From Succinivibrio dextrinosolvens (lineage in GTDB: Bacteria; Pseudomonadota; Gammaproteobacteria; Enterobacterales; Succinivibrionaceae): a DNA stretch of 64,000 nucleotides. The notes beneath the pieces were generated by a model. The model did no database searches. It saw only the letters and a list, made by a program, of their open reading frames with translations, and was not told the DNA's origin. The stretch lies in the NCBI RefSeq assembly GCF_011065405.1, contig NZ_CP047056.1, forward strand, positions 3,308,747-3,372,746. Reading direction: 5' to 3'. This document shows positions 3,939 to 38,471 of the stretch, in pieces (position 1 is the first letter of the stretch; each line of letters begins with the position of its first letter). The translations under genes and the position numbers were made by a program.

Positions 3939-4900
3939 AATTCCCCCTGTTTACGCTGATTTTTGAAGAACCAGATAATAGGTATTGCCATAACTGTAAG
4001 CATGGTAATTGCAACGGATGAAGCAAGAGGCCAGTCTCGGTTGTTGAAGAATTCCTGCCAGAGAATTCTACCGATAAGAATAGAGTCCTTACCACCGAGC
4101 AGTTCAGGAATTACGTACTCACCGATTGCAGGGATGAATACCAGCATTGAACCTGCAATAATACCGCTGCGGGTCTGTGGTACCAGCGCATGGAAGAAGG
4201 TCTTTACAGGACGGCATCCAAGATCCTGAGCCGCCTCGATAAGGCTGTAGTCCACCTTCATAAGTGATGAGAATAAAGGCAGTACCATATAAGGGAGATA
4301 ACAGTAAACAATACCTATATATACAGCCAGATCAGTCTGCAGCATATGCAGAGGATGATCAATGATGCCGATACTCATCAGAATATCATTGATAAGTCCG
4401 TCTCTCTTTAAAATTGTCATCCAGGCATAGATTCTTACCACAAAGGAAGTCCAGCTTGGCATAATTATCAGAATAAACAGAATATTGCGGGTTGTACTCT
4501 TTGAAGTAGCAAGTGCCCAGGCAATCGGATAGCCGATAATCAGACATAAAAGAGTAGAGAATGCCGCTACCTGAATTGATTTAAGATAGGAACGCATATA
4601 GGTTCCATCCGGATCAATAAAGATATTGGTGTAGTTTTCCAGGTGCAGAATAATCTGCATTGCACCTTCCTCAAAGGTAACAATTGGGGAATAAGGCGGG
4701 ATCGCAATTTCTGTTACTGAAAAAGAAATCTTAAAGATAATCAGAAATGGGATCAGGAAGAACAGAATCATCCATACATAAGGTAAAAAGATGATTGCTC
4801 TTTCTCTTAAGGTAATCTTTCTGCCTGGAACATACCTAGGTGGTGGACGGTGTCCCTTTGACCCAGGAGTTCTAATCATATTTGAACTTATTAAAGCCAT
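3935..4900 (-). CDS. potH: Putrescine ABC transporter permease PotH
   Basis: Inner-membrane permease, 321 residues, with an N-terminal cytoplasmic extension rich in Pro and basic residues before the first membrane span at about 35-57. It has the EAA loop (IEAAQDLGCRPVKTFFHALVP) and a stretch typical of PotH (GRILWQEFFNNRDWPLAS) near the C-terminus. With PotI it forms the translocation path driven by PotG. It lies 32 nt after potG and overlaps potI by 4 nt. Assignment to the putrescine (PotFGHI) rather than spermidine (PotABCD) system rests on these motifs and is fairly firm. Confidence 0.9.
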   Translation of the reverse strand: MALISSNMIRTPGSKGHRPPPRYVPGRKITLRERAIIFLPYVWMILFFLIPFLIIFKISFSVTEIAIPPYSPIVTFEEGAMQIILHLENYTNIFIDPDGTYMRSYLKSIQVAAFSTLLCLIIGYPIAWALATSKSTTRNILFILIIMPSWTSFVVRIYAWMTILKRDGLINDILMSIGIIDHPLHMLQTDLAVYIGIVYCYLPYMVLPLFSSLMKVDYSLIEAAQDLGCRPVKTFFHALVPQTRSGIIAGSMLVFIPAIGEYVIPELLGGKDSILIGRILWQEFFNNRDWPLASSVAITMLTVMAIPIIWFFKNQRKQGEL

Positions 4901-4932: not shown

Positions 4933-6147
4933 TTAGAAGGTCAGGGCAATACAGGATTCAGGATCCCAGCTCAGATAAACCTTGTCATCCCAGGTTGGAA
5001 GACCAACATTGAATCTGTCAACATTAGGCAGAGTAGAGGTAATGATTCTTCCTGATGGCAGACGTACATAGTAAATTGAGATATCACCAAGATACGCGAT
5101 ATTCTCTACTGTACCTTCACACCAGTTGGTCTGCTCGGCAGGTTCCTCGTGGGAGATATAGACCTTCTCTGGTCTCATGGCAATAGATACAGGCATTCCG
5201 TCGGCAATATCGATATCGTGCAGAAGTTCGATTGGACGAGGGAAATCATTACACTGAATTACAGAGTGCTTATTGTCTGACTTGGTCAGAATGCAGTCGA
5301 ACATGTTAACCTGACCGATGAACTCTGCAGAGAATCGGCAGTTAGGGTTCTCATAGATTTCACGAGGTCCACCAATCTGTACGAACTCTCCACGATCCAT
5401 AATGGCAATACGATCAGCCATGGTCATAGCCTCTTCCTGATCGTGTGTAACCATAAGGCAGGTAACGCCAACGGAGTTGATGATATCAACAAGCTCCAGT
5501 CTCATCTGTTCACGCAGCTTCTTATCCAGAGCTCCCATAGGCTCATCTAGAAGCAGCAGGCGAGGTTCCTTTGCAAGTGATCTTGCAAGTGCCACACGCT
5601 GTTTCTGTCCACCTGAAAGCTGGTGAGGGCGTCTGTCAACGTAATCCTCCATGTGTACCAGTTTCAGCATTTTTTCAACTCGTGCATTGATAACATCACG
5701 TGGAAGCTTTTCCTGCTTTAAACCAAAGGCAATATTCTGGCGAACAGTCATATATGGGAACAGAGCATATGACTGGAACATCATGTTTAAGGTTCTCTTA
5801 TATGGAGGAAGGTTAACAATATCCTCCCCATCAAGAATAATATGACCTTCTGATGGCTGTTCAAAACCGGCCAGCATTCTCAAAAGGGTAGACTTGCCGC
5901 AGCCTGAAGAACCGAGCAGGGCAAAGATTTCTCCTTCATAGATGGTCAGATCAACATTATTAACAGCAGTAAAGTTACTGAAATTTTTTGTAAGTCCCTG
6001 AATCTGCAGAATAGGCTTTTTGTTCTGCTCTACAGGTGAAGCTTTCTGTCCTGGAAGCTCACCAGGTCTGTGAATCTGTTTTTGTGTGCTGTATTCGTTT
6101 GGTTTGTTAACCATTGGGGCAGCCCCATAATCGCCAGTATCTTTCAC
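4933..6147 (-). CDS. potG: Putrescine ABC transporter ATPase PotG
   Basis: ATP-binding subunit of the putrescine importer, 404 residues. Walker A GSSGCGKST, signature LSGGQKQRVALARS, Walker B LLLLDEP and the switch His in MVTHDQEEAM are all intact. A C-terminal TOBE-like domain follows, with the PotG-type stretch AYLGDISIYYVRLPSG. The N-terminus has about 45 extra residues before the nucleotide-binding domain. The start is GTG at 6145-6147, supported by CGGAGA about 9 nt upstream on the minus strand; an internal ATG at 6114 is the alternative. It heads the potGHI operon, and the 6148-6339 gap is shared with the divergent gene at 6340. Confidence 0.9.
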   Translation of the reverse strand: MKDTGDYGAAPMVNKPNEYSTQKQIHRPGELPGQKASPVEQNKKPILQIQGLTKNFSNFTAVNNVDLTIYEGEIFALLGSSGCGKSTLLRMLAGFEQPSEGHIILDGEDIVNLPPYKRTLNMMFQSYALFPYMTVRQNIAFGLKQEKLPRDVINARVEKMLKLVHMEDYVDRRPHQLSGGQKQRVALARSLAKEPRLLLLDEPMGALDKKLREQMRLELVDIINSVGVTCLMVTHDQEEAMTMADRIAIMDRGEFVQIGGPREIYENPNCRFSAEFIGQVNMFDCILTKSDNKHSVIQCNDFPRPIELLHDIDIADGMPVSIAMRPEKVYISHEEPAEQTNWCEGTVENIAYLGDISIYYVRLPSGRIITSTLPNVDRFNVGLPTWDDKVYLSWDPESCIALTF

Positions 6148-6339
6148 GCACGAAATCTCCGAAATAAAGAGAAAAATGTTTATTTTTTTGTGAAAAGGAT
6201 CTTAAAGGAAATGAGATAACAGTCAACCTTTTTTTTGATATATTTGCGTTTTGATTTAATTTTTCTTTTCAGAGCTGTTTTCGGCTTAACATCCTTACGG
6301 CATAGCTCTTTTTTCTCTTGAAAAGATTCTAGAGAATAG

Positions 6340-7578
6340 ATGCCTAATCTGATAGACTTGTCAGAAGACTTACATAAGGTTTGTTACAGGCAGAAAATCT
6401 ATATGGATAATGTTTTTTCTCAGGGAGAGGATACTTTCCTTTTTGGTCCGAATCAGGAAAATGAGGTTGGTCGTCAGATAAAATATCTTGGAGGTTCCAA
6501 GGTTCTGGTGATCTATTCTAAATTGTCATCTTCCATTGGCAATCTTTTAGATAAGGTTAGACGCTCTCTGCGCAACACCGGTCTTGATTATACCGAATTA
6601 GGGGAATCCTACGTAAATCCAAGAATTTCCACTGTTTTTGACGGCATCAAGATCTGCAAGACAGAAGATGTGGATTTTATTCTGGCTGTAGGTTCTACAT
6701 CTGTTTGTTCCGTAGCCAAGGTTATTGCCGCCGGAGCTGTTTTTGAAGACAGCTTTTATGAGATGTTCAAAAATAACAGTGATATTGAAAAAGCTCTGCC
6801 TCTTGCCGTAATCAGTACATCTATCTGCGGTGGCTGCGCTATCTCCAGAGAAGTCACTGTCTTTAACCGCCTTGAGGATGGAAGTCTAAAATACTTTGAC
6901 TGTTCATCAGAGGTTCTTTCCCCTAAGTTTGTAATTTATAATCCTGAACTTTGCAGTATCAGTTCCTCAAATTACGCCTTCAATTTTGTAAGGCTGCTGG
7001 ATGTGCTCTTTCGAAGATATTTTGAAGTCAACAAGAATACAGTTCTGGCTGAAAAAATGCTGGAAGCTACAATCAAGACTGTTCTTATAATGTTTGAAAA
7101 GATTAAGGACAAGCCAAACGATGTTGACTGTATAACCAATCTGATGTGGGCAAGTATTTCGGCATATGTAAATCCGATGCTTAACTACAATGATGAGGCC
7201 TGTATCCCTATTTTAGAGAAGGCCATGATTTCTGTTTATGACTGTAATCCAGAAGAGGCTGCAAGTATTATTATTCCTGCCTGGTTTAAATTTGTACTTA
7301 AGAAAAAGGAACTGCAGATAGCAAAACTTGGCTCTACTGCCTTTGATATTCCTTACAATTTTTCTGATGTCGGAATTACTGCTTCCCAGACAGTGGATTT
7401 TATCAAACGCAGATTTGAGGCTTTAAAGTTGCCGGTAAAACTGTCTGAATTAAACGGTAATGCGGGGGATATTGAAAAGATATTAAAGAAGGTTGGTTTC
7501 CCTGAGATAAAATCAATCGGAACCAATGAGCATTACACTCAGACTGACTGTGAGGTTATTCTGTCTCTGGCTCTTTAA
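6340..7578 (+). CDS. Degenerate iron-type alcohol dehydrogenase-like protein (metal ligands lost)
   Basis: Fold of the YqhD/butanol dehydrogenase branch of Fe-type alcohol dehydrogenases, 412 residues, near family length. Recognisable stretches include FGPNQENEVG (33-44), NPRISTVFDGIKIC (93-106), DFILAVGSTSV (112-122; GGGSV in active members) and the C-terminal helical domain. By my hand alignment to YqhD the four metal ligands are all replaced: Asp194 by Arg218, His198 by Val222, His267 by Lys294 and His281 by Pro304. The nucleotide-binding GGGS is GSTS. The reading frame is intact, so this is probably an expressed pseudoenzyme of unknown role rather than a decayed gene. It is divergent from potG and convergent with the gene at 7759-9474. 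Confidence 0.75.
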   Translation: MPNLIDLSEDLHKVCYRQKIYMDNVFSQGEDTFLFGPNQENEVGRQIKYLGGSKVLVIYSKLSSSIGNLLDKVRRSLRNTGLDYTELGESYVNPRISTVFDGIKICKTEDVDFILAVGSTSVCSVAKVIAAGAVFEDSFYEMFKNNSDIEKALPLAVISTSICGGCAISREVTVFNRLEDGSLKYFDCSSEVLSPKFVIYNPELCSISSSNYAFNFVRLLDVLFRRYFEVNKNTVLAEKMLEATIKTVLIMFEKIKDKPNDVDCITNLMWASISAYVNPMLNYNDEACIPILEKAMISVYDCNPEEAASIIIPAWFKFVLKKKELQIAKLGSTAFDIPYNFSDVGITASQTVDFIKRRFEALKLPVKLSELNGNAGDIEKILKKVGFPEIKSIGTNEHYTQTDCEVILSLAL

Positions 7579-7611
7579 GCTTGTGTGTTCCAGATTCTTG
7601 TTCAAAAAAAT

Positions 7612-7642
7612 AAGGTGGTAAATCTTTGAGGAGAACCACCTT
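7612..7642. terminator. Bidirectional terminator
   Basis: The stem AAGGTGGT / ACCACCTT has a 15-nt loop. An A-run on the left serves as the T-run for minus-strand transcription, and TTAGTTTTG lies on the right. It sits between two convergent genes. Confidence 0.6.
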
Positions 7643-7758
7643 AGTTTTGAGATAAACTGTTTTCTAAATTTTAAGTATTAACATTTTCTGTTTGGAGAGC
7701 TCTCAGATCAGATGTTACTGCTGTCATCTTTATCGGCATCAGCTTTCTTTTCTACCCG

Positions 7759-9474
7759 CTATTTTGGCTCTTTCTCTTCTTTTTTCTCTTCAATAACCTT
7801 TTCTGAAACGTTAAGAACTTCAAGCGCTTCATCCTGGGTCTTGCTGTCCTTGTCGTTCTTCTCCTCTGGACTTATCTCCATCATCAGACGATGCATGAAG
7901 CCAAGCATATCGTCGAAGAACTCTCGATTTACGTGTTCTGTAGCTTTGTACAGATCACCGCCCTTATAGGTAAAGGTAATTCCCGGAGCGTTGAGGTTAT
8001 AGAACGTTGAGATAGGCATTGGACATTCATCTTTTAAAGCCTTTAGAGCAACATCAATTCCAACAGGTCTGATAAAGCAGTTGTCATTGGCAGGGCACTC
8101 ATTTTCGATATTGATCTGATGGTCATGCTTTTTATTGAACTCTTCAACAGCCTTGTTGATTTTGATGAAGATTTCTCTGTCCAGAGCATTGTTACGTCTC
8201 AACTGCTGCTGAGGAATAAAGTCATTACCAAAGAAAATCACTACAGATGGTCTAGGAAGACGGGCCAGCTCATTGAGACGTTCGATGATATTCTTAAGAA
8301 TATCCTGAACTCCAAGCTCCTCATTGGCACACTTCTGAATCAGACCTTCAATGGCTGACTTAAGATTTCCTTTATAGTGAAGCGCTGCTCTGTAGAAAAA
8401 GTCTGCAAAGGACAGTACTTCTGCTTCCTTAACCGGAATAGTATGCTCTTCATCATTAATCTTGCAGTAAAGCAGTTCTCTCTCTTCCATAAGCAGAGCT
8501 GATTTTTCAATGGCACTGGCGGCTACCTGTTTCAGATTCTCAAGCAAATCGAGAATATTCAGGTTGATAAATGGGAAGGTGAAACTTAAATGAACAGCAT
8601 CCGGAGTATTTGGAGAACGGTTATTGTAAGTGTGCAGATAATTAAAGGTTGGGGCAATAGCTCTCTTGGATAAATCTTTGGTGATAACTGGATTGATCTC
8701 AATTTCATCAATAATCTTTGAGGCAATCAGGGTTGGAGAGAATCCCTTGTATGGTCTTTCAGTATCTGTACCTTCACCAAAGATGTAGAAGCCTGCTTCC
8801 ACCTTACCCATATTGGCAGTGTACACATTAATGGTGTCATCCGGAATTTCTGTGGATTCTGGTTTGAAGGAAATGCCTAAAGTCAGTTCAATATTCTGCT
8901 CATTAATAAGGGTATGAATATAAGGAAGACAGGTTCTTATTCCTTCATTGCCGTTCAGTGATTCACTGTTGCATACGAACAGCAGATTGATAGGAAGCTC
9001 CCACAGCCTTTCTGAGTAGTATTTCAGAAGGATCAGCATGCCTGCAATAGGAGCCTTGTTCTCAAAGGAACCTAGTCCGTAGATGTTATTCTCATTCTCA
9101 AGTTCAGCAAGCTGAGCTTCTGTCAGAGAGGAGTTTTTGAGTTTCTCCTTTAATTCGTCTGATTTGAAGGCAAATGTTTTTAAGGTACCGTAGACCTCAT
9201 TTGAGGAGGTATCGGTATTACATAAAACCACCAGAGTTTCTCTGGTAAGCTGATCTCGTCTTACAAAGGCTGTAAAGGAATGATTTTTCTGATCGTCATG
9301 AGTGATGTAGCTTAAATACTCTGGATTATTCTTGAAATAGGTGAATTCAGATACGGTATTGTATATGGTATGACTCATGATCTCATCACCAGAGGTTCTG
9401 GTGATGCTTGGAATGGCAATAAGCCATTTGAGGACAGCTAATGCCTCTTCGCTAAACTCTTTTTCAGTAAGCAC
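7759..9474 (-). CDS. RocB-like M20 family protein with lost metal site
   Basis: 571 residues with the layout of RocB (arginine utilisation) M20 zinc peptidases: an N-terminal catalytic-type domain with IPSITRTSGDE (21-31) and TDTSSNEVYGTL (87-98), and a long C-terminal part. The zinc and catalytic residues are changed by my alignment. His of the HxD motif is Asn86 (CNTDT), the bridging Asp of MDMKSG is Glu138 (FENKAP), the catalytic Glu of DEE appears as Ser170, and the late His is Tyr509 (GGDLYK). A Lys/Glu-rich tail of about 35 residues ends the protein. It is probably not a metallopeptidase; its role is unknown. It follows the M23 hydrolase gene by 40 nt in the same direction, so the two are likely co-transcribed. 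Confidence 0.7.
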   Translation of the reverse strand: MLTEKEFSEEALAVLKWLIAIPSITRTSGDEIMSHTIYNTVSEFTYFKNNPEYLSYITHDDQKNHSFTAFVRRDQLTRETLVVLCNTDTSSNEVYGTLKTFAFKSDELKEKLKNSSLTEAQLAELENENNIYGLGSFENKAPIAGMLILLKYYSERLWELPINLLFVCNSESLNGNEGIRTCLPYIHTLINEQNIELTLGISFKPESTEIPDDTINVYTANMGKVEAGFYIFGEGTDTERPYKGFSPTLIASKIIDEIEINPVITKDLSKRAIAPTFNYLHTYNNRSPNTPDAVHLSFTFPFINLNILDLLENLKQVAASAIEKSALLMEERELLYCKINDEEHTIPVKEAEVLSFADFFYRAALHYKGNLKSAIEGLIQKCANEELGVQDILKNIIERLNELARLPRPSVVIFFGNDFIPQQQLRRNNALDREIFIKINKAVEEFNKKHDHQINIENECPANDNCFIRPVGIDVALKALKDECPMPISTFYNLNAPGITFTYKGGDLYKATEHVNREFFDDMLGFMHRLMMEISPEEKNDKDSKTQDEALEVLNVSEKVIEEKKEEKEPK

Positions 9475-29058: not shown

Positions 29059-29256
29059 TTTGATTTCCAGTGATGAAATTACATTTTTTGCTCAATATAA
29101 CACTATTTCAGAGAAACTGAATCAGGTAAACAGGAAGTAATTCCACATTGCCATCTTTCTGAACATCTTTTGTATAAGCAAGAATCTTCCTGGATATTCT
29201 TGAGGAGAATTTTTCTGAAAATTTATCGATAGATGAGTGATTTTTATCAAGTAATA

Positions 29257-29300
29257 GGCACGCTAAAACCACGCAGTTTACTGCGGGGATAAAGCGTGCC
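29257..29300. repeat. Left-end hairpin of the IS605-type element
   Basis: The outer 8-bp perfect stem GGCACGCT / AGCGTGCC encloses an inner stem, CCACGCAG / CTGCGGGG (one mismatch). It starts 9 nt inside the left boundary at 29248. Confidence 0.8.
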
Positions 29301-29799
29301 GATTAGAAAATGGATATTTTCTAATCAGGTGTGTTCTGTTGTTCTATATATTGTCTAATAATAGAAACTGAGGCTCCTCCACAACTGCATGCAAAATAGG
29401 ATGGTGACCAAAGAGCTTTCCCCCAAAGATTTTTTTGTATAGAGGGATAATTCTTTTTTCTGATAATTAGACTCGAATAGCCTTTGAGAGCTTGAACTAG
29501 TTTTGAGATTGCAACTTTTGGAGGATAACTGACTGGCAGATGAACATGATCAGCCTCTCCATCAAATTCTAATAGTTTTGATTCAAATCTGACACATACT
29601 AGAGAAAAGATATTTCTGAGTTCTCCTAAGATAGCTGCTGTTAATACTTTACGTCTCATACACGGGATCTTAAATACTATACGGGTAATTAGCTGATTAA
29701 TTTAGAAAAGATATCGATCTAAAAAGATGAGGCTTCAAAGAAGCGGTTGTTCATTTTATTATTAAATAGCAATCAACAAAAACAAAATGGAGCAACCGC

Positions 29800-31164
29800 A
29801 TGACCTCATTGTATCCTAGATCAGATCTTTCTTCAAATTCTCTAAGCTCATTACTACAGTCTGTATTATCAGATCTCGAAATTAATAATCTGGCGCATGA
29901 CACCAAACTTGTTGTCAGAAGCCGCCTGTTTGACCCTGCTGTATTTATTTACACGGTCATTGGAATTTTAAACAGAGACAAGGAATTTACTCTCAGGAAT
30001 ATTCACTACGAATACACCTGCAACATGCTTAAGAAAGGTAAAGAGTCTCTATCCTGGGAGCCTTTTTACGATTTTCTTGATAAAAAGCAAATGCCAGTGT
30101 TCCTTAAGTCTCTTTGTGACAGACTCAATGAAATCAGTATTAATGAAGTTCTGTCAGATACAAAAGAGCTTGTTGATGCGTTAAGGTTAAAAATGCCTAA
30201 CCTTACTGATCTCCTGATTCAGGACGGCAGTGAAATTGCGTGCAACTGCAGAGAGTACAAAGGCAAATTTGAAGATGCCAATGAAGCCAAACTGCATCGC
30301 ACCCTGTCATTAAGTTCATTTACAGAGCTGAGTTCTTCTATAACCTCAGGAGTTGCCTCTGAGAGAAAAGAAATCAGCATGTATAAACTTGAAAACAGAC
30401 TACTGCTGGCCGATGCCGGATATCCATCAAAAAAGCTGTTTCCTAAGATAGCCCTTGCAAAGGGATACTATCTGATTAAACTTAAATCTGGTTCTGCTCT
30501 GGAAGTTGTCAGTTACAATCAGTACAACACCGATGGAACAGTTACCGAATTTAAAAATGTTAAAACAAGGTTTAATACCTACTACAAAATCAAAGATGAA
30601 TTCTTTAACAAAAAATGCACCTTTGATTTTGAAGTATTAACTGCTGAAGGCTCAATACAGAGAATTGTTGCCGTATACAATGAAGCTTTGGATAAACATG
30701 TATACTTCGCAACAAATATCCCGAAGGATACTCTTGATGCCATTCAGATAGGAGAACTGTACCGAGCCAGATGGCAGGTCGAAATCTCCTTCAGAATACT
30801 TAAGGGATTCTGCTCACTCAAAAAGTGTAATACCCGTAAATCAGGTATTGTGCAGTCCCTTATTTACCTGAGCCAGATTGTTTATCTGCTCAAGCTGATT
30901 ATTGGACAGCAGCTGCAAAAAGTTGCTGATACAACCTTTTCACCAAAGAAACTGGTGAATCGTATAAAGTGCCACTTCATGGACATAATAGAGCTGGCAC
31001 TTGATAGCGCAGAACGCTTGAAATCATACATTGAACGACATCTTGAACTGTTCAAAACGTATACCAAAAGCGCTCCTAGTTTTACTAACCGCATGAGAGG
31101 TAAAAGCATTAGACATATAATTGAGGTTGTATCTAAAACTCCAAGGATGCCTGTAAATGCTTAA
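29800..31164 (+). CDS. IS4-family DDE transposase
   Basis: 454 residues. RNase H-like DDE transposase: first Asp in LLIQDGSEIAC (near 140), second in LLLADAGYPSKK (near 205). The IS4 signature Y-(2)-R-(3)-E-(6)-K appears as YRARWQVEISFRILKGF, supplying the last Glu. A stretch near 165-195 seems shorter than in some family members, but the catalytic triad is there. The left element end is probably 29657, just after the 9-bp repeat. I could not find a convincing right terminal repeat close behind the gene, so the element may have been disrupted by the IS110 insertions. Confidence 0.88.
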   Translation: MTSLYPRSDLSSNSLSSLLQSVLSDLEINNLAHDTKLVVRSRLFDPAVFIYTVIGILNRDKEFTLRNIHYEYTCNMLKKGKESLSWEPFYDFLDKKQMPVFLKSLCDRLNEISINEVLSDTKELVDALRLKMPNLTDLLIQDGSEIACNCREYKGKFEDANEAKLHRTLSLSSFTELSSSITSGVASERKEISMYKLENRLLLADAGYPSKKLFPKIALAKGYYLIKLKSGSALEVVSYNQYNTDGTVTEFKNVKTRFNTYYKIKDEFFNKKCTFDFEVLTAEGSIQRIVAVYNEALDKHVYFATNIPKDTLDAIQIGELYRARWQVEISFRILKGFCSLKKCNTRKSGIVQSLIYLSQIVYLLKLIIGQQLQKVADTTFSPKKLVNRIKCHFMDIIELALDSAERLKSYIERHLELFKTYTKSAPSFTNRMRGKSIRHIIEVVSKTPRMPVNA

Positions 31165-31710
31165 GCAACCTATATAGAGAATTGGCGCAGGTCAAGAGAT
31201 TTTCTCAGTGTTCGCAGAACTTTTGACGAACTTCAAAATTTCGTTATCCTTTAATCTTTTCTCAGGCCTTTTCCTGACAGGCTTAACTCCTATCTTTACT
31301 GTATGAGATTTTATCATTGTTTTGATGTTTTTTCAGACAATAATAAAACTATCTGCAACGGCAGACATGTATTGGATCAATTGATTAAAACATGGTGTTA
31401 AGTTATTGCTATAGCGTTTATCCCTGTTGTTCTGATTCTGACTGTCACTGCCGATCCTTTTACGCGATTTCTATATAATGTGTTTTTGCAATATTTTGGT
31501 AAAGACCATTTTTATTGCCACGAGCTTGTGCCTTTCAGCCATTTAGCCATACTTACGATTTCAATTTAAAAACAGAGAAGTTTGTTAAAAAACAAATCAG
31601 GCTCTGATTGTCTGCGTTTAACTAAGTTATGGCTTTCTCCTAGGAGCGATCTTGTCGGTGATGATCAAAATGATTTAAATATTGTTGTACGGTTAAATAA
31701 ATTCTTTCTG
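31165..31710. other. Non-coding stretch with a decayed reading frame
   Basis: No intact gene. At 31303-31569 (plus) one frame of 89 codons, MRFYHCFDVFSDNN to FSHLAILTISI, is broken by a single TAA at 31399-31401. The second half is hydrophobic (IAIAFIPVVLILTVTADPF). I do not recognise it; it may be the remnant of a small membrane protein gene or chance. The 3' parts of the flanking IS4 and IS110 elements must also lie here. Confidence 0.35.
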
Positions 31711-33135
31711 TTAGTCCAAAGCTGCCTCATAAACTGAGCAGTCTTCGTTATATCCTGTGCCACTCTTTATCTCTGCAATAAGCTGGTTCTGCCAGGGGGT
31801 ACTTTCATTTACCGAGAGTTTTATACTGTTCAAGAGTGATTGCAGCTGTTCCCCAGCAGTGTCTTTTAAAATCTCATAAAGAACAGGATCAACAAGCGCT
31901 GAGCGAATACTGTTTTCAAGTTTCTTTAACTTCGATCTGAATTTACTGATTTTGTTTCGTGCGATCTTTTTATCTGATGTTGAAAGATCAAACTCTGACG
32001 AGGTATTGCATTGTGCAGGATCATTTTTCTGTTCTTGAGCTGGTTCAGATTTAAGAGGAGCATCAGTTGCCATCTTAAAGATTTGTCTGGCTATATCCTT
32101 GGCATATGCAATCTTAAGACGCTTGTCCTTTAAGTCTAGTTTCTTGTCATCAAGCTTTTTGTTGGTAATTAGTTTGTTATGCGCCACCACAAGAGAGTTA
32201 CCGCCTTCATAGAAAAGCGCCTTTAAAATCTTATTTCCCTCTGGGGAGTGTTTACCAACCTTGTTCTTGCCACCTGTGCCGTGATGTACAGGTACTAACT
32301 GCATAAACGAGATGAAGCTGTTGGCATTTCTGAATCTGTCAAAGTTATCCTGAGTATAAACACTTACCGCCACAGCTAGCGGAACACCTACGCCACGTAC
32401 CGACAGATATTTCTCACAGCTCTGGTGGGTGCTGGCATAATTTTCAAAGAATTCATTCTCAATTCCTGCAAGGCTTATGGCATACATCTCAAGCATTGCA
32501 CATTGCCGTTCCAGATAACCGCAAAGTCCGCTCACCTTGTTTTTACAATGCTCATATTCACTGATAAAGTCTCTGATGTGTCTTATGGTCTGAGATGGTG
32601 TCATCTCATAGCTGTAACCTTTAAGTGCATCCTGCTCTCTGAGGAATGCTATTAGATTTCTGTTTGTGGCTGTGATATTGCTTTTAATATCTGAATAGCT
32701 TTTAACCAGAAACATCTCCTGCCGGTTCACCTCATCTCTGATTATGCAGTGCTTAAAGGTAGCTGAGTTCGGATATGTTTTATAAATCAGCAGCGCATTT
32801 CTGACACCACGGGCATCTCCCTTATCATCCTTGTTCTTGCTGCAGTTATGATTTCGACAGGATTTTGCAGGAAAGATATATACCTCAGCCCCAAGTCTTT
32901 GTATAAGAGTTGCCCAGTAGTTTGAACCGCCACAGGCTTCCATGGCAAAAACATAGTTCTGATTAGCATGTTCAGTGATGAACTTAAAGAAATTTTTAGG
33001 ACTAAGCTTGAAATCGTGTTCAATTCCATCTAAGTCTGCAAGACTTAGCTGAATTTCTTTTGACGCCAGGTCAAAACCTACTAAAACCTTATTAATTTCA
33101 TTTGCAAAGGTTGTAAGATTATTGGTAGTATTCAT
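31711..33135 (-). CDS. IS110-family transposase (first copy)
   Basis: 474 residues. The N-terminal DEDD RuvC-like domain has Asp in LVGFDLASKEIQ, Glu in YVFAMEACGG and Asp in NKDDKGDARG. The C-terminal transposase_20 region includes LSVRGVGVPLAVAVSVY and GTGGKNKVGKHSPEGNKIL. A long C-terminal extension of about 110 residues goes beyond most members. The ATG at 33133-33135 has GGGAGA 8 nt upstream. IS110 recombinases use a bridge RNA encoded in the element's non-coding end, normally upstream of the gene, here 33136 onward. It differs strongly from the neighbouring IS110 protein at 33622, so these are two different elements. Confidence 0.9.
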   Translation of the reverse strand: MNTTNNLTTFANEINKVLVGFDLASKEIQLSLADLDGIEHDFKLSPKNFFKFITEHANQNYVFAMEACGGSNYWATLIQRLGAEVYIFPAKSCRNHNCSKNKDDKGDARGVRNALLIYKTYPNSATFKHCIIRDEVNRQEMFLVKSYSDIKSNITATNRNLIAFLREQDALKGYSYEMTPSQTIRHIRDFISEYEHCKNKVSGLCGYLERQCAMLEMYAISLAGIENEFFENYASTHQSCEKYLSVRGVGVPLAVAVSVYTQDNFDRFRNANSFISFMQLVPVHHGTGGKNKVGKHSPEGNKILKALFYEGGNSLVVAHNKLITNKKLDDKKLDLKDKRLKIAYAKDIARQIFKMATDAPLKSEPAQEQKNDPAQCNTSSEFDLSTSDKKIARNKISKFRSKLKKLENSIRSALVDPVLYEILKDTAGEQLQSLLNSIKLSVNESTPWQNQLIAEIKSGTGYNEDCSVYEAALD

Positions 33136-33621
33136 TTGCGATTTCTCCCTTAAGTTGTTTTTTTTCGCAATATAAATTTTACCTAAGAGAGAATTGCAAA
33201 AGGCGGAGCTCTGTCAAAGAGTTTCCGCCTTAAATTTTTCCATTCAAATGTGACCAGAACTATATACGCAGTTAATCTCCTAAGGATTACATCTTTATAG
33301 AAATCTGAAATGAATTCCCAACTGCAGTTTTAAACCGGAAATAGGGGCCAATTCATGTAATGCGATTCAATGTTATCAGTTGCTTAAAAGACCTCACTAT
33401 CTCCGATTTAAAACCACAGTCAGTGAACCTGAGGTTCAGCTCAGACTGCATTTGGAAGACTATTGATGGACAAATCACAGCGCAAGTTAAAAAAGCTATC
33501 CGGTCGACCTATACAATAGCCTTCAGAATGCAATCTGAACAAAATTCATGGTGCATCAAGTCCACGGACGCAGGAAGCTTTAGCACATTCACTTATGATG
33601 GTTATTAAACAGTACCGAGTA
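33136..33621. other. Non-coding stretch between two IS110 elements; possible bridge RNA region
   Basis: 486 bp with no convincing gene. It holds the upstream end of the first IS110 element (where a bridge RNA is expected on the minus strand, roughly 33136-33330), a hairpin at 33201-33230 and the downstream end of the second IS110 element. An 82-codon open frame at 33360-33608 matches nothing I know and is probably not a gene. Confidence 0.4.
33201..33230. repeat. Hairpin related to the left end at 1322-1364
   Basis: The stem AGGCGGA / TCCGCCT continues inward with GCTCT / AGAGT. The sequence GGCGGAGCTCTG then TCAA matches 1351-1366 with one difference. It may be part of the IS110 non-coding RNA region or a leftover IS200/IS605 end into which the IS110 inserted. 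Confidence 0.5.
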
Positions 33622-34734
33622 TTACCTCAGTTTTTTTATCAGATTACATCGTGTTTCATCAAAGGTCTCTCCGTTCTTTGCTACCGCATAAGCGATTCTG
33701 GCAAGGCGATTCATAATGGCACAGATAATGACTTTCTTTCTCTTGGTCTTAAGCCTATCCTTTACCCATGACGATTCTGTACCGTTTTTCATGGCATTGG
33801 ATAGATAGACCATAGCACCCATATAAAGGCTCTTCTTAAGTGAGCGAATACCTGATTTACGAATCCCCATAACGGTAATTTTTCCGCCACTACCGGTAAT
33901 AATCGGGGTCACTCCCACATAGGCTGAGAATGCTCTGGCACTGTGAAATCTCTCAGGATCACCTAAAGCTGTATTCAATGCTACTGCTGTTTGTATTCCT
34001 ACACCTGGAATAGTCGCAAGATTAAGACAGGTTTTATTCGAGCTTCCATACTTTTGTATGTACTTATTGATTGTATCAATCTGCTCCTTAAGGTTATCGA
34101 GGATATTGAATACAGCGTTTTTGATGACAGAGAAATGTGCTGATGCCATAGGATCATGCTCAAAGCTCTCCTGCGCATCAGTAAATCCCAGACTGATCTT
34201 TGCAGATGTTTCAACACCAGCACCTCCTGCCACAATACCGTGCTCATAAAGAATACCGTGTGCTGCATTGATACACTGGGTATGCTGTTTTATGAGCTGG
34301 TCTCGTATTGTAAAAAGGTTCATGAGTAACTGATTTTCAAGACTCTTAGCTGGGATACTTTCAACCGAGGACAGCATTGCCTTGAATATTCCTGTAGCAT
34401 CAATCTTATCGTTCTTATCAAGTTTTAAGAACGCTTTGACCTTTGATGCCGGAATTATTCTGCACTGATGACCTTTGCTTTCAAAATATCTGCTAAGGTA
34501 GTTGCAAGAACCACAGGCTTCTATTCCGAAAAGCATAGGCCCTGTTGCCTTGTCAACGAATTCAAAGAATTTGCTGCGGGTAAGCTGAAAGTTTTTGAGC
34601 AGCTTCTTATCGCTGTCAAAGTAACAGACCTGCATAACTCTGCTTGCCACATCAACAGCGACAGGATTTACTCCAAGCGTGTCACGATGGTAAGCAATGG
34701 TTGCAAGTTCATAATCACTAAGCTTAGGTTTCAT
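33622..34734 (-). CDS. IS110-family transposase (second copy)
   Basis: About 370 residues. The DEDD domain has Asp in VAVDVASRVMQV, Glu in LFGIEACGSCNY and Asp in KLDKNDKIDATG. The C-terminal half contains LATIPGVGIQTAVALNT, FSAYVGVTPIITGSGGK and a basic region near the end. The start ATG at 34734 with GGAG upstream is preferred; an in-frame TTG at 34782 would add 16 residues. The short upstream gap to the right 9-bp repeat (34735-34884) would hold any bridge RNA of this element. Confidence 0.88.
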   Translation of the reverse strand: MKPKLSDYELATIAYHRDTLGVNPVAVDVASRVMQVCYFDSDKKLLKNFQLTRSKFFEFVDKATGPMLFGIEACGSCNYLSRYFESKGHQCRIIPASKVKAFLKLDKNDKIDATGIFKAMLSSVESIPAKSLENQLLMNLFTIRDQLIKQHTQCINAAHGILYEHGIVAGGAGVETSAKISLGFTDAQESFEHDPMASAHFSVIKNAVFNILDNLKEQIDTINKYIQKYGSSNKTCLNLATIPGVGIQTAVALNTALGDPERFHSARAFSAYVGVTPIITGSGGKITVMGIRKSGIRSLKKSLYMGAMVYLSNAMKNGTESSWVKDRLKTKRKKVIICAIMNRLARIAYAVAKNGETFDETRCNLIKKLR

Positions 34735-35022
34735 ATGAAAGGTAGCTCCGATTAAATGTCTGTTGATTACAACTTCAATCAAAGCTATGATGAACCTAGG
34801 AATACAAGCTTATTTTGAAGTACCTAGAGTCAGGAAATTGCGTCCGTAAATTTATTTCCATTCTCTACATACTATTCATGCATGTTTACGTCTGTATTTA
34901 ATCACAAAAACCAGATGAACATGCAAATTGTAAACACAATGTCGGCCGTGCAAAAATTCTGTTTTTTTCATATACTATCATCCTCAATTGTTAATAATCT
35001 TGTTGGAGTCCTTTCATCGTAA

Positions 35023-36312
35023 ATGAATATCAACTGGAAACAGGCATACAGATATAGGTTAAGACCTAATGGCGCACAGCAGAGAAGATTACTTCAGCTC
35101 TGCGGCTCTGCCAGATATGCATGGAACCAGGTCTTGACAGGAAGAAATGAGGAATATAAGGAATATCTTGAAGACATCGAATCAGCCAAATGCTGGGGAG
35201 AAGATGTTTCTTTAGTACCAAAGCCAAGACCTATAAATAGATTTTCATTTACATATGATCTTAATAAACTGATGGCAGAGGAAGAAAACAGCTTTCTCAA
35301 GACTCAGGGGCACTCTCAGGTGCTGCAGCAAAAGATGCAGGACTTGTATAGTGCTTTTAGCCGGTTCTTCACAGGTAAAGGCGGATATCCTCAATTCAAG
35401 ACCAAAAACGGATACAACTCTATAAGATTTCCTCAGGGCATAAATCTGGATGAGAAGAATCAGAGGATCTTTCTTCCAAAGACCGGTTTTGTAAGGTACA
35501 GAAAGTCCAGAGATATAGAGGGAGACATAAAGAACGTAACCGTCTCATTCTTTTCTGGAGAATGGTATGTATCTATACAGACTCAGAAAGAAATTGAAGT
35601 ACCTGAGATAAATCTAAAAACCATGTTAGAGACTGAGGCGGATAATGCTTTGGGTATAGATATGGGAGCAGTACGCTTCTGCACCTTCTCTGACGGACGT
35701 TATGAAGAGTCACTAAAGAGTAATGAGCTTACCCGTCTTGATGAAAAGATAGCTATTGTTCAGAGACAGCTCAAAAACAAAAAGAAAGGTTCTAACAGAA
35801 GATTAAGACTTATAAAGAGAATTTCCAGACTTCATCAGAAGAAAGCCAATATACGTAATGACAGTCATCAGAAGCTCAGCACACTGATTTGCAATAGCCA
35901 CGCTATAGTTGTTGCTGAGGAGCTGAAGATCAAGAATATGACGAAAAGTGCAAAAGGAAGCCTGTTAAATCCTGGTAAGAATGTAAAAGCAAAGTCAGGA
36001 CTTAACCGTTCAATTCTGTCTGAAGGCTGGGGACAATTCTTTAAGATGCTTGAATACAAGCAGAAAAAGAGAGGTCATATCTTTTTACAGCTTAACCCAA
36101 AGAATACCAGCAGAACCTGTCCTAAATGCGGTCATGTCTCAAAAGACAATCGCAGAACTCAGGCTCATTTCTGCTGTACGAACTGTGGATATACAGCTAA
36201 TGCAGATGAAAATGCAGCGGGAAATATCCTAAGGGCCGGACTGGCCCGGCTAGCACAGGAAGTGAACTCCAAAAGGAGTCAGCACTGTGAACCCTCTGAA
36301 GCTGAACAGTAA
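35023..36312 (+). CDS. tnpB: TnpB RNA-guided nuclease of the IS605-type element
   Basis: 429 residues with the standard TnpB layout. The N-terminal helix-turn-helix region is YRYRLRPNGAQQRRL. The RuvC residues are Asp in LGIDMGAVRFC, Glu in VVAEELKIKNM and Asp in NADENAAGNI. A four-Cys zinc ribbon (CPKCGH, CCTNCGY) lies before the last Asp. All appear intact. It diverges from the split tnpA with about 50 nt between start codons. Although tnpA is dead, TnpB could still cut empty target sites and preserve the element at this locus. The C-terminal tail (about 25 residues, rich in Ser and Glu) overlaps the omega-RNA region. Confidence 0.93.
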   Translation: MNINWKQAYRYRLRPNGAQQRRLLQLCGSARYAWNQVLTGRNEEYKEYLEDIESAKCWGEDVSLVPKPRPINRFSFTYDLNKLMAEEENSFLKTQGHSQVLQQKMQDLYSAFSRFFTGKGGYPQFKTKNGYNSIRFPQGINLDEKNQRIFLPKTGFVRYRKSRDIEGDIKNVTVSFFSGEWYVSIQTQKEIEVPEINLKTMLETEADNALGIDMGAVRFCTFSDGRYEESLKSNELTRLDEKIAIVQRQLKNKKKGSNRRLRLIKRISRLHQKKANIRNDSHQKLSTLICNSHAIVVAEELKIKNMTKSAKGSLLNPGKNVKAKSGLNRSILSEGWGQFFKMLEYKQKKRGHIFLQLNPKNTSRTCPKCGHVSKDNRRTQAHFCCTNCGYTANADENAAGNILRAGLARLAQEVNSKRSQHCEPSEAEQ

Positions 36313-36355
36313 TGTCAGCAGTAGGAATCCTCTTGCTTCAAGAGGAGGATGTCAA
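36200..36355 (+). ncRNA. Predicted omega-RNA and right end of the IS605-type element
   Basis: The region overlaps the tnpB 3' end and closes with the right-end hairpin CCTCTTG / CAAGAGG (36329-36345) followed by AGGATGTCAA, the classic form of an IS605 right end. In this family the guide is the flank just outside, here from 36356 (AGCCAGAGC). The 5' end of the RNA is a guess. Confidence 0.45.
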
Positions 36356-36926
36356 AGCCAGAGCTTTTGACTTCAATTGGACAAATTTTCTTGTTGAAGG
36401 TTGTTAAAAAATCAATTTCGTAATTTCTTTTTGCTGCTTCATTTCTGAATGTATGATAGAAAAGACCGTGTCCATTTGTTGCAAGTGTCTGAGCGATTAT
36501 GTTCTCATATAGATATCCAAGGTTAGTCTGCAGTTTGTCATTTAGCAATTTTGCATATATATCATTTTCGGTAAAATCTTTGTCTTTAAATGACAATGTA
36601 ACAAACAGTCCTGTATCTGTGGTGAAGAGTTTGAATCTTGAAAGATCTTTGTTTTGAGATAATCCAACATTAGGATCATTTGCATGGTAGGAAAACAGTA
36701 CTGTTCCAGAATCTTTTAGTTCTGCAATGTCCTCAAGAATGTCTCCTGCTCGATTCCCTAACTACAGTAGATTTTCCTACTCGTCTTGGACCTTCTATCA
36801 AAAGAGCTGTACGTCCGTTTGATTCTTTTTTCCACTTAAGTATTTTGTCGTATATCTTACGCTTAAACATCAGGTTTAACCTTTTTAATATTGGTTTTTA
36901 CATTCTAATTTTTTAATCAGAATTTC

Positions 36927-37040
36927 AAAATCGTCAAATTTTTTTTAAGCGTTTTACCGCAAAATCGTCAAATGTTTTTAAGCGTTTTACCGCAAAATCG
37001 TCAAATGTTTTTAGGAGTTTTACCGCAAAATCGTCAAATG
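36927..37040. repeat. 33-bp-period repeat array upstream of the disrupted DUF4143 gene
   Basis: AAAATCGTCAAAT occurs at 36927, 36961, 36994 and 37027 (spacing 34, 33, 33). It is followed in three units by a T-run, an AGCGTTTTACCGC-like segment and the next copy. The first unit is about 55 bp from the start codon of the disrupted ATPase gene at 36872. On the minus strand each unit carries TTGACGATTTT, so the arrays may overlap promoter elements. The rest of 36873-37181 is AT-rich with no gene. Confidence 0.9.
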
Positions 37041-37181
37041 TTCTTTATAAATAAGCTTAACTATTTGTTTTTTTTTAGTAATCTAAGTTATTGAATAACA
37101 AGTTGTGTCTAGCGGATATTTTGGTTTTAAGCCTACGATTTTTTTAATAAAAAAGTTTTTTTGTTCTCAATTGTATCTTTT

Positions 37182-38471
37182 CTACAAGTTACACACTGCA
37201 TATAGCGGAATATTGACCATCCAATCCTGCTCTTGGTAGTTTAAAAGAGATAATCTTATAGACTGTTCTGGATGAAATTTATTGTAAAAAGCTTTAAGAC
37301 TTTGAGAGTGAATGTTAGTTTCTGCTTTTACTTCAATTGGTACGGCATTCATCCCTTTCTGAATAAGAAAATCCTGCTCGAATGTTGCCGATTCTGTTCC
37401 ATAATAATAAGGTGAATACTCCGTATCACTTACGATCTGCTGAAGAACGTATTGTTCTGTAAAAGCTCCTTTGAATTCAATAAAAAGTCTACTTCCTTCA
37501 ATAATAGAATGCAGATCCAGTTCACTCATGGCCCCCAATAAACCAATATCTAAAAAAAACAATTTAAAAAATGATAGTTCTTTGTATGCTGAAAGAGGAA
37601 CATGAGGAATATTGACTTTATGAACTCTGTAAATCAGGCCACTATCTATTAACCATTGTATTGCTTTCTCAAATTCAGAGCTTCTTGCCCCTTTTTTTAT
37701 CTGACCGAAGAAGAATTTTTTGTTTTCTTTTGCAAGCTGCATAGGAACGGAATCCCATACCATATTTATACGAGGTAGCTCAATGGAAGAAATATGTTTT
37801 CCAAAATCTCCCCTATACTGAAGGATAATTTCTTTTTGAACATCTCTTGCAGCGTAGTAGTCACTATTATTTAGAAAGCAGTTAACAGCTTCTGGCATTC
37901 CTCCAACATACATGTAGTTTTTCAGGTGATATATGTATTTTTCTGAAAAACTGTCTATAAGGTTGTAATCTTTGGTTTTTAGAGCATCCGCTAATACATT
38001 TTCTCCAACTGCATATAAAAACTCTCTAAAGTTAAGAGGATAGAGATTAAGTGTTGTTACCTTTCCTACCGGATAAGAAACACCTTCATGTAATGCTACA
38101 CCAAGAAGAGATCCTGCAACAATGATATTATATTCAGGAGCATCCTCATTAAAATATTTTAGAGATTCAAAGGCTTTTGGTGCGTTTTGTATTTCATCAA
38201 AAATAATGAGTGTATTGTCTGCGGAAACAGTGAATCCTACCTCAATATTTATGGCAGAAATTATTCTTTTAATGTCATAGTCCTGCTCAAAAACTCTCCT
38301 CATGCGAGCATTATTGTAGAACGATATATATGCAACTTTGTCGTAATATTGTTTGCCAAATTCCTTCATTAGCCAAGTTTTTCCTACCTGACGTGCCCCC
38401 ATTATGACTAAAGGCTTTTTATTTTTTTTATTTTTCCATTCAACAAGTTTTTGCATTGCGAATCGTTGCAT
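37182..38471 (-). CDS. AAA_14/DUF4143 family ATPase, intact
   Basis: 429 residues, full length. P-loop VIMGARQVGKTWL near 22-34, Walker B TLIIFDEIQNAP near 87-98, sensor-like IIVAGSLLG near 135, and the DUF4143 part with AFTEQYVLQQI. The terminal nuclease-like motif (EQDFLIQKGMNAVPIEVKAE) retains Asp and the E-x-K pair. Function is unknown; some suggest defence or toxin-antitoxin roles for the family, without proof. It is only distantly related to the gene at 118-1311. An array of four 33-bp repeats lies upstream, starting about 95 bp before the ATG. Confidence 0.88.
   Translation of the reverse strand: MQRFAMQKLVEWKNKKNKKPLVIMGARQVGKTWLMKEFGKQYYDKVAYISFYNNARMRRVFEQDYDIKRIISAINIEVGFTVSADNTLIIFDEIQNAPKAFESLKYFNEDAPEYNIIVAGSLLGVALHEGVSYPVGKVTTLNLYPLNFREFLYAVGENVLADALKTKDYNLIDSFSEKYIYHLKNYMYVGGMPEAVNCFLNNSDYYAARDVQKEIILQYRGDFGKHISSIELPRINMVWDSVPMQLAKENKKFFFGQIKKGARSSEFEKAIQWLIDSGLIYRVHKVNIPHVPLSAYKELSFFKLFFLDIGLLGAMSELDLHSIIEGSRLFIEFKGAFTEQYVLQQIVSDTEYSPYYYGTESATFEQDFLIQKGMNAVPIEVKAETNIHSQSLKAFYNKFHPEQSIRLSLLNYQEQDWMVNIPLYAVCNL

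Follow-up and report, generated by a model that had tools for sequence, protein, structure and literature searches.

The 64,000-nucleotide stretch of the Succinivibrio dextrinosolvens chromosome analyzed here (contig NZ_CP047056.1, positions 3,308,747 to 3,372,746; referred to below as the window) contains a nested locus. An ATPase gene is interrupted by an IS200/IS605-type insertion sequence (IS), this is interrupted by an element that duplicated 9 bp of its target, and the latter holds IS110-type DNA (Table 1). An original prediction, made from the sequence alone, had described this nesting, which was borne out in a base-by-base check in which all coordinates held. It had also identified the innermost DNA correctly as IS110-type but overlooked a second recombinase gene and a putative multi-loop RNA. 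Both belong to a 3.7 kb IS110/IS1111-type unit, in which gene 1 and gene 2 flank a region predicted to encode a bridge or seek RNA.

The two genes run in the same direction and are 24% identical. Both encode DEDD recombinases with a Transposase_20 domain, as in other IS1111 and IS110 members; gene 1 scores above the NCBIfam IS110 cut-off and gene 2 below it. The predicted fold of gene 2 (a medium-confidence model) resembles those of IS621 and ISCro4 (Foldseek E ~1e-10), and the protein retains the four DEDD residues, with threonine where the solved relatives have the catalytic serine. The serine is present in gene 2 of the related G014 and G010 elements; threonine recurs in gene 1 of the G036 element. 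In phylogenetic trees the gene 2 group is separate from gene 1 (support, 81/73), with a single origin in 84% of bootstrap trees. Pairwise ratios of nonsynonymous to synonymous substitution rates are about 0.04 to 0.26 for both genes, mostly 0.14 to 0.26, and as judged from these ratios both genes are under purifying selection.

Five copies of the unit have the same ends at distinct sites: two (the window copy and L002) lie inside an IS4-family IS, and three (L003, L004, and L005) lie outside it. The subterminal inverted repeats are 12 bp long with one mismatch, and insertion produced no target duplication beyond one shared base (a 1-bp overlap). A genome copy search found neither half of the unit alone; judged from its copies, the unit moves as one piece. 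Many insertion sites are in other insertion sequences, including an IS4 end, tnpB genes, and transposase regions of IS66 type and ISL3 type. Two-recombinase units were seen repeatedly inside tnpB of IS200/IS605-type elements (L060, L061, L024, L025, L021, and L093).

Genes 1 and 2 are also linked on one contig in G014 (an uncultured Succinatimonas), G010 (Succinivibrio sp.), and G036 (Candidatus Avisuccinivibrio). In G003 (Succinivibrio faecicola), gene 1 with a left end and gene 2 with a right end are on separate contigs, and the two ends have a 14-bp subterminal repeat in common; gene 2 of a second G003 element is cut by a contig end. Where readable, the elements of these relatives have subterminal repeats and right ends in ...TATAG, and gene order and orientation are alike, with similar spacing, in diverged Succinivibrionaceae lineages. 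A screen of 174 IS110-gene loci, many of them overlapping, for adjacent unlike pairs yielded only two other pairs, one in Leisingera and one in G016; the latter consists of an unrelated IS110 gene followed by a fragment of gene 1. The Leisingera contig (L154:305-2648) has two unlike IS110 genes with a 71-bp gap in a different arrangement. A search of the genome contigs with the 474-amino-acid (aa) gene 2 protein alone gave no relative, and a contig search with an alignment instead returned mostly single IS110s. On the evidence of these loci, the two-gene layout is not a local accident.

The 486-nt stretch that follows gene 1 folds much better than shuffled sequences (z, −7.0), as do the corresponding stretches of L052 (−4.7) and L094 (−4.0), which together cover three lineages. 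There was no fold signal after gene 2 (z, −0.8), and a second RNA at that position was rejected on this basis. The stretch is organized in modules: the window unit has two long stem-loops, G003 has at least two that are nearly identical, and the type found in G014, G010, G002, and G016 has four. Modules have conserved sides, and their loops differ almost completely wherever three or four related copies align. Among three related elements, identical columns amounted to 11 of 29, 11 of 31, and 13 of 29 in the loops of modules 1, 2, and 4, compared with 452 of 513 outside them. For module 3, three copies agree and the fourth departs from them; module 2 is nearly unchanged across all five unit copies.

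Each loop holds two guides. The 5′ guide has C as its last base and is the complement of the right target half; the 3′ guide, which stops at the G of a conserved GAAUU, matches the left one. L004 and L005, which have identical flanks, are inserted in a tnpB remnant, and their loop 1 forms 11 pairs with the right half of this site and 10 with the left. The two guides are separated by 17 nt, and no target among 1,500 shuffled ones scored as high. The uninterrupted tnpB site is present in G016 exactly as predicted. Loop 2 forms 10 pairs with the right half of the IS4-end target of the window copy and L002, and pairs at 12 of 12 positions with an independent site, the sequence flanking a related G014 unit. 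Loop 2 fits neither end of the unit itself (left donor, 1; right donor, 3). L003 is at a dctP site, where loop 1 fits 8 bases on one side; the window copy has the same loop 1 as L003, but its insertion point is the IS4 end, to which loop 2 fits. Among the four-module elements, module 4 fits the site of L052 and module 1 that of L063. Over seven of the elements' own sites, the best-module scores summed to 75, compared with a shuffled mean of 40.7, and 0 of 2,000 shuffles reached as high. The L002 and L005 units are the same in substitutions, yet they occupy two unrelated targets, the IS4 end and tnpB. Because their sequences are the same, one element appears to have reached two unrelated targets, with a different loop reading each.

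The original prediction treated the DNA between the 9-bp repeats as a 5.2 kb composite insertion. The 9-bp duplication stands; the single piece does not, because the DNA consists of an IS4-family IS of about 1.52 kb and the separate 3.7 kb unit, which sits 7 bp from the IS4 right end in the window copy and in L002. The IS starts with CATACACGGG and ends with ...CAACCATGCATG, and uninserted copies (L007 and L012) occur in the same genome. An IS4-type DDE transposase and a target duplication of about 9 bp place it in the IS4 family, although its ends (CATACAC.../...ATGCATG) match over a few bases only, compared with the family norm of ~16- to 20-bp terminal inverted repeats. The copies in the window, L002, and L006 have exact, mutually different 9-bp duplications; those of two copies other than the window's are TTAAGAGCA and ATTTCTTTT. 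The 5.2 kb arrangement was thus found a second time, as anticipated, between other 9-bp repeats (L002).

With respect to the order of events, one explanation for the two arrangements is that the IS4-IS110 composite formed once and was then transposed whole to both places. The different 9-bp duplications and a 3′ variant of the IS4 element common to both 5.2 kb copies agree with this order, which we consider possible but rather unlikely. The variant also occurs without IS110 DNA (L018); the units in the two IS4 hosts are 153 substitutions apart, whereas the IS4 parts are 45 apart; the L002 unit has zero substitutions relative to the L005 unit outside IS4; and the IS4 parts are not sister copies, that of the window being closer to L006. 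Together, the divergence of the units, the identity of one of them to L005, and the relationships of the IS4 parts argue for separate entries of the unit into the same IS4 position, as read from these copies. The contrast of 153 with 45 substitutions could also reflect gene conversion. Gene conversion among unit copies is likely, since L003-like and L005-like stretches are combined as a mosaic in the window unit, and for this reason the IS4 and IS110 entries cannot be placed in a strict order. The predicted nesting of IS110 DNA inside the 5.2 kb piece is correct; its entry after the IS4 insertion is one of two possible orders.

We postulate that the innermost element is probably an IS1111-like two-recombinase bridge-RNA element with several target-reading stem-loops. 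Mobility as one unit, two genes, purifying selection, variable loops, and loop-site pairing can be read from the sequences; the model would further imply production of the RNA, its use by one or other of the proteins, and assistance of gene 1 by gene 2. The cycle would begin when the element is excised as a circle; the junction of its ends would then promote transcription through gene 1, the RNA, and gene 2, by analogy with IS1111 biology (PMC11187229). The RNA would be processed into loop units bound by recombinase; one of several loops would pick a target around a G, a step supported by the pairing; and the conserved TATATAG stretch would read the element ends. Having several loops per element would lead to insertion at several unrelated sites, many of them inside other IS. 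Gene 2 might provide the other half of a recombinase tetramer or serve some of the loops. In IS621, the serine contributed by one dimer cooperates with RuvC residues from the second dimer (PMC11208158), and a mixed tetramer of both proteins is therefore structurally possible; it is the least certain step. More tentatively, and with somewhat less than even confidence, we speculate that the element carries an array of independently changing target loops and two specialized cooperating recombinases (in a mixed tetramer or with one per loop set), representing a step between single-target bridge RNAs and TIGR-type arrays.

An alternative hypothesis is that the unit encodes an ordinary bridge RNA, with module 1 as the sole target loop, module 2 as the donor loop, and gene 2 as a passenger from a fused IS110. 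In published bridge RNAs, a single target loop is accompanied by a single donor loop (PMC11208160), the window element has two modules only, and near-constancy of module 2 in the five copies is what would be expected of a donor loop. However, module 2 mismatches the unit's own ends while matching the IS4 target and the site in another genome, relatives have four modules of which at least three are hypervariable, and gene 2 shows purifying selection and has been retained by several diverged lineages, which makes this explanation improbable. It is very improbable that the unit is two separate side-by-side IS110-family elements moving together by chance or as a composite: each gene encodes a complete IS110-type recombinase and the window copy has a right-end-like stretch between the genes, but no half occurs alone in the genome, order, orientation, and spacing are maintained in diverged lineages, the subterminal repeats are at the outer ends, and no structured RNA follows gene 2.

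Several observations weigh against the multi-loop, two-recombinase interpretation. The loop boundaries were set while the first matches were in view, so that the statistics are partly post hoc. No loop of L065 fits its site; L003 and L063 fit in the left half only (for L063, only the left half is known); the left half of the window site fits poorly; L053 is only borderline; and the L052 site scores 13.5 with the L063 loops, compared with 12 with its own. Module 3 of the four-module elements may, from its sequence, be a donor loop, because three of its four copies are conserved and it can form 7 pairs with the left end, and the donor-reading loops are not firmly placed. Copy L004 has a frameshift, one gene 1 among the related copies carries a stop codon, and contig ends truncate several related copies. 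When the predicted target of window module 1 was searched for, no clear site emerged, and control counts were similar.

The right end of the unit also occurs as short stretches elsewhere. In L006, the IS4 end retains only 44 bp of the unit, identical or nearly so to its right terminus, and in L021 (~3995-4040; own genome, 1257994) tnpB contains an in-frame 39 bp with the same resemblance. We considered whether the 39 to 41 bp at the unit's right end derive from tnpB and rejected this origin, because a near-identical tnpB lacks those bases; the stretch would thus be a scar left by the element. The 39-bp and 44-bp scars look like products of aberrant excision via 3- to 4-bp identities located 39 to 44 bp from the right end. 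L022:4412-4576 contains a diverged (78%) remnant of this end, 165 bp long.

In the RNA region, the right-end-like stretch between the genes of the window copy was considered as an element-fusion relic and is better explained as part of a hairpin before gene 2. The GC-rich G036 element was examined for the same GAAUU modules and set aside, as the motif was not found. The Avisuccinivibrio element (L094, reverse complement, 5169-8958) is inserted into a run of G, and visual inspection of its RNA shows GGGGGG and CCCGCCUUAGACCC, which would suit that site.

The outer layers were also reconstructed. The ATPase frame breaks off behind TTTAT at 29247 and continues from 36356; joining the two parts (...IEVKSSG-Y-KNHSSIDKF...) rebuilds the frame, as originally proposed. 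Uninterrupted alleles sought in related genomes of the genus are present in G016 (97% identity; a 451-aa frame), G002 (90%), and G001 (78%), and match the joined protein over its full length, across the join and with no stops. An internal deletion also breaks the frame of the pseudogene. Just upstream of its start (36920-37045) are tandem repeats of about 38 bp (cgcaaaatcgtcaaatgttttta...), and a second, apparently intact AAA_14/DUF4143 ATPase adjoins it (37182-38471). The IS605-type element has about eight further copies on the same chromosome, several with uninterrupted tnpA; TTTAT precedes all left ends that were read, and right ends terminate in TGTCAA. Neither result that would have contradicted the original prediction, other ends in homologous elements or an ATPase allele at odds with the join, was seen. 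Rejoined over a single TTTACGTCT copy, tnpA encodes the expected 137-aa transposase and matches the uninterrupted copies. The Y1 tnpA, the tnpB, and insertion 3′ of a fixed short motif with no target duplication are those of the IS200/IS605 family. Shorter copies of 1.73 kb (L013, L014, and L016) have lost the tnpA 5′ region and retain tnpB. Scans of the window for Rfam families and tRNAs gave no match.

Table 1. Features of the nested locus, with positions in the window (aa, amino acids)
Feature	Position	Strand	Basis
IS110/IS1111-type unit, two recombinases; first base C shared with target	31170..34877	-	five copies
Gene 1, IS110-type DEDD recombinase, 386 aa, GSGG at catalytic serine position	33622..34782	-	NF033542, 229 bits
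Gene 2, diverged IS110-type recombinase, 474 aa; DEDD kept, GTGG replaces serine motif	31711..33135	-	profile and fold
Region between genes, predicted multi-loop bridge/seek RNA	33136..33621	-	fold z −7.0
Module 1 stem-loop; hypervariable target loop 33477-33519	33442..33537	-	copy alignment
Module 2 stem-loop; 5′ guide 33379-33390 (CTTTTAAGCAAC) pairs with IS4 right end	33319..33423	-	pairing
Conserved stretch CTGCGTATATAGTTCTGGTC, candidate donor-reading part (TATATAG = right end)	33252..33271	-	inference
Hairpin that would cover gene 2 ribosome-binding region	33136..33199	-	inference
Left subterminal inverted repeat TATGTAGAGAAT	34860..34871	-	end comparison
Right subterminal inverted repeat ATTCTCTATATA	31171..31182	-	end comparison
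9-bp target duplication TTTACGTCT, left copy	29648..29656	.	exact repeat
9-bp target duplication, right copy	34885..34893	.	exact repeat
IS4-family element, main part, left end CATACACGGG	29657..31170	+	uninserted copies L007, L012
IS4-family DDE transposase, 454 aa	29800..31164	+	NF033592, 144 bits (cut-off 115)
Last 7 bp of IS4 (ATGCATG), severed by IS110-type unit	34878..34884	+	copy comparison
IS200/IS605-type element, 1.87 kb without insertions, after TTTAT, right end TGTCAA	29248..36355	.	intact copies, same genome
tnpA (Y1 transposase), 3′ part	29321..29656	-	PF01797, E 8e-34; join
tnpA, 5′ part, ATG start	34894..34971	-	join
tnpB (RNA-guided endonuclease family)	35023..36312	+	NF040570, 277 bits
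ATPase (AAA_14/DUF4143) pseudogene, 5′ part, with internal frame-breaking deletion	36356..36870	-	uninterrupted relatives
ATPase pseudogene, 3′ end, up to TTTAT at 29243-29247	29108..29247	-	uninterrupted relatives

The outer IS200/IS605 and IS4 elements are ordinary members of their families, in which we found nothing unusual. The open-access papers searched, preprints excluded, contained no IS1111-like element with two genes and a multi-loop guide RNA; bridge-RNA papers describe one target loop and one recombinase (PMC11208160). Among programmable genome-editing enzymes, bridge recombinases form a new class. If our interpretation is correct, multiplexed targeting exists in nature, in a mobile element with other mobile elements among its frequent targets, and the unit would offer a natural test of splitting recombinase subunits into specialized partners and a possible intermediate for the origin of guide arrays.

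As far as can be read from sequence and pairing, the recombinases, ends, and guide logic of the unit are those of IS1111. In published IS1111 elements, the seekRNA follows the recombinase gene, and the top-strand complement precedes the bottom-strand one (PMC11187229); here too, a long non-coding region lies downstream of the recombinase, with the top-strand complement first. The unit thus resembles ISEc11, ISPa11, and IS621 (PMC11187229, PMC11208160) in its DEDD recombinase, subterminal repeats, non-coding region, and guide order. Unlike them, it has two genes with the RNA between them, several target loops, and a length of 3.7 kb: the single recombinase gene usual in IS1111 is replaced by two in five copies and in other lineages, and the usual single two-stem bridge RNA with one target loop would be replaced by two to four modules. 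ISEc21, an IS110-type element whose target is in IS3-family transposase genes (PMC11187229), offers a parallel for what appears here to be RNA-guided insertion into another IS, but it has a single gene and a single target.

The tandem stem-loop units, each with two spacers for the two strands, and the IS110-type RNA-binding fold also recall TIGR-Tas (PMC12045711). TIGR arrays mostly have dual repeats and occur with solo-Nop or nuclease-fused proteins, and the same study sets them against IS110 bridge RNAs, described as "a single two-stem unit" (PMC12045711). TIGR-Tas systems have an array beside a Nop-domain Tas protein; in our unit, stem-loop units are present, but the TIGR-Tas profile NF052498 gave only 21.8 bits (cut-off, 100), and the proteins are complete DEDD recombinases in a mobile element with only two to four units.

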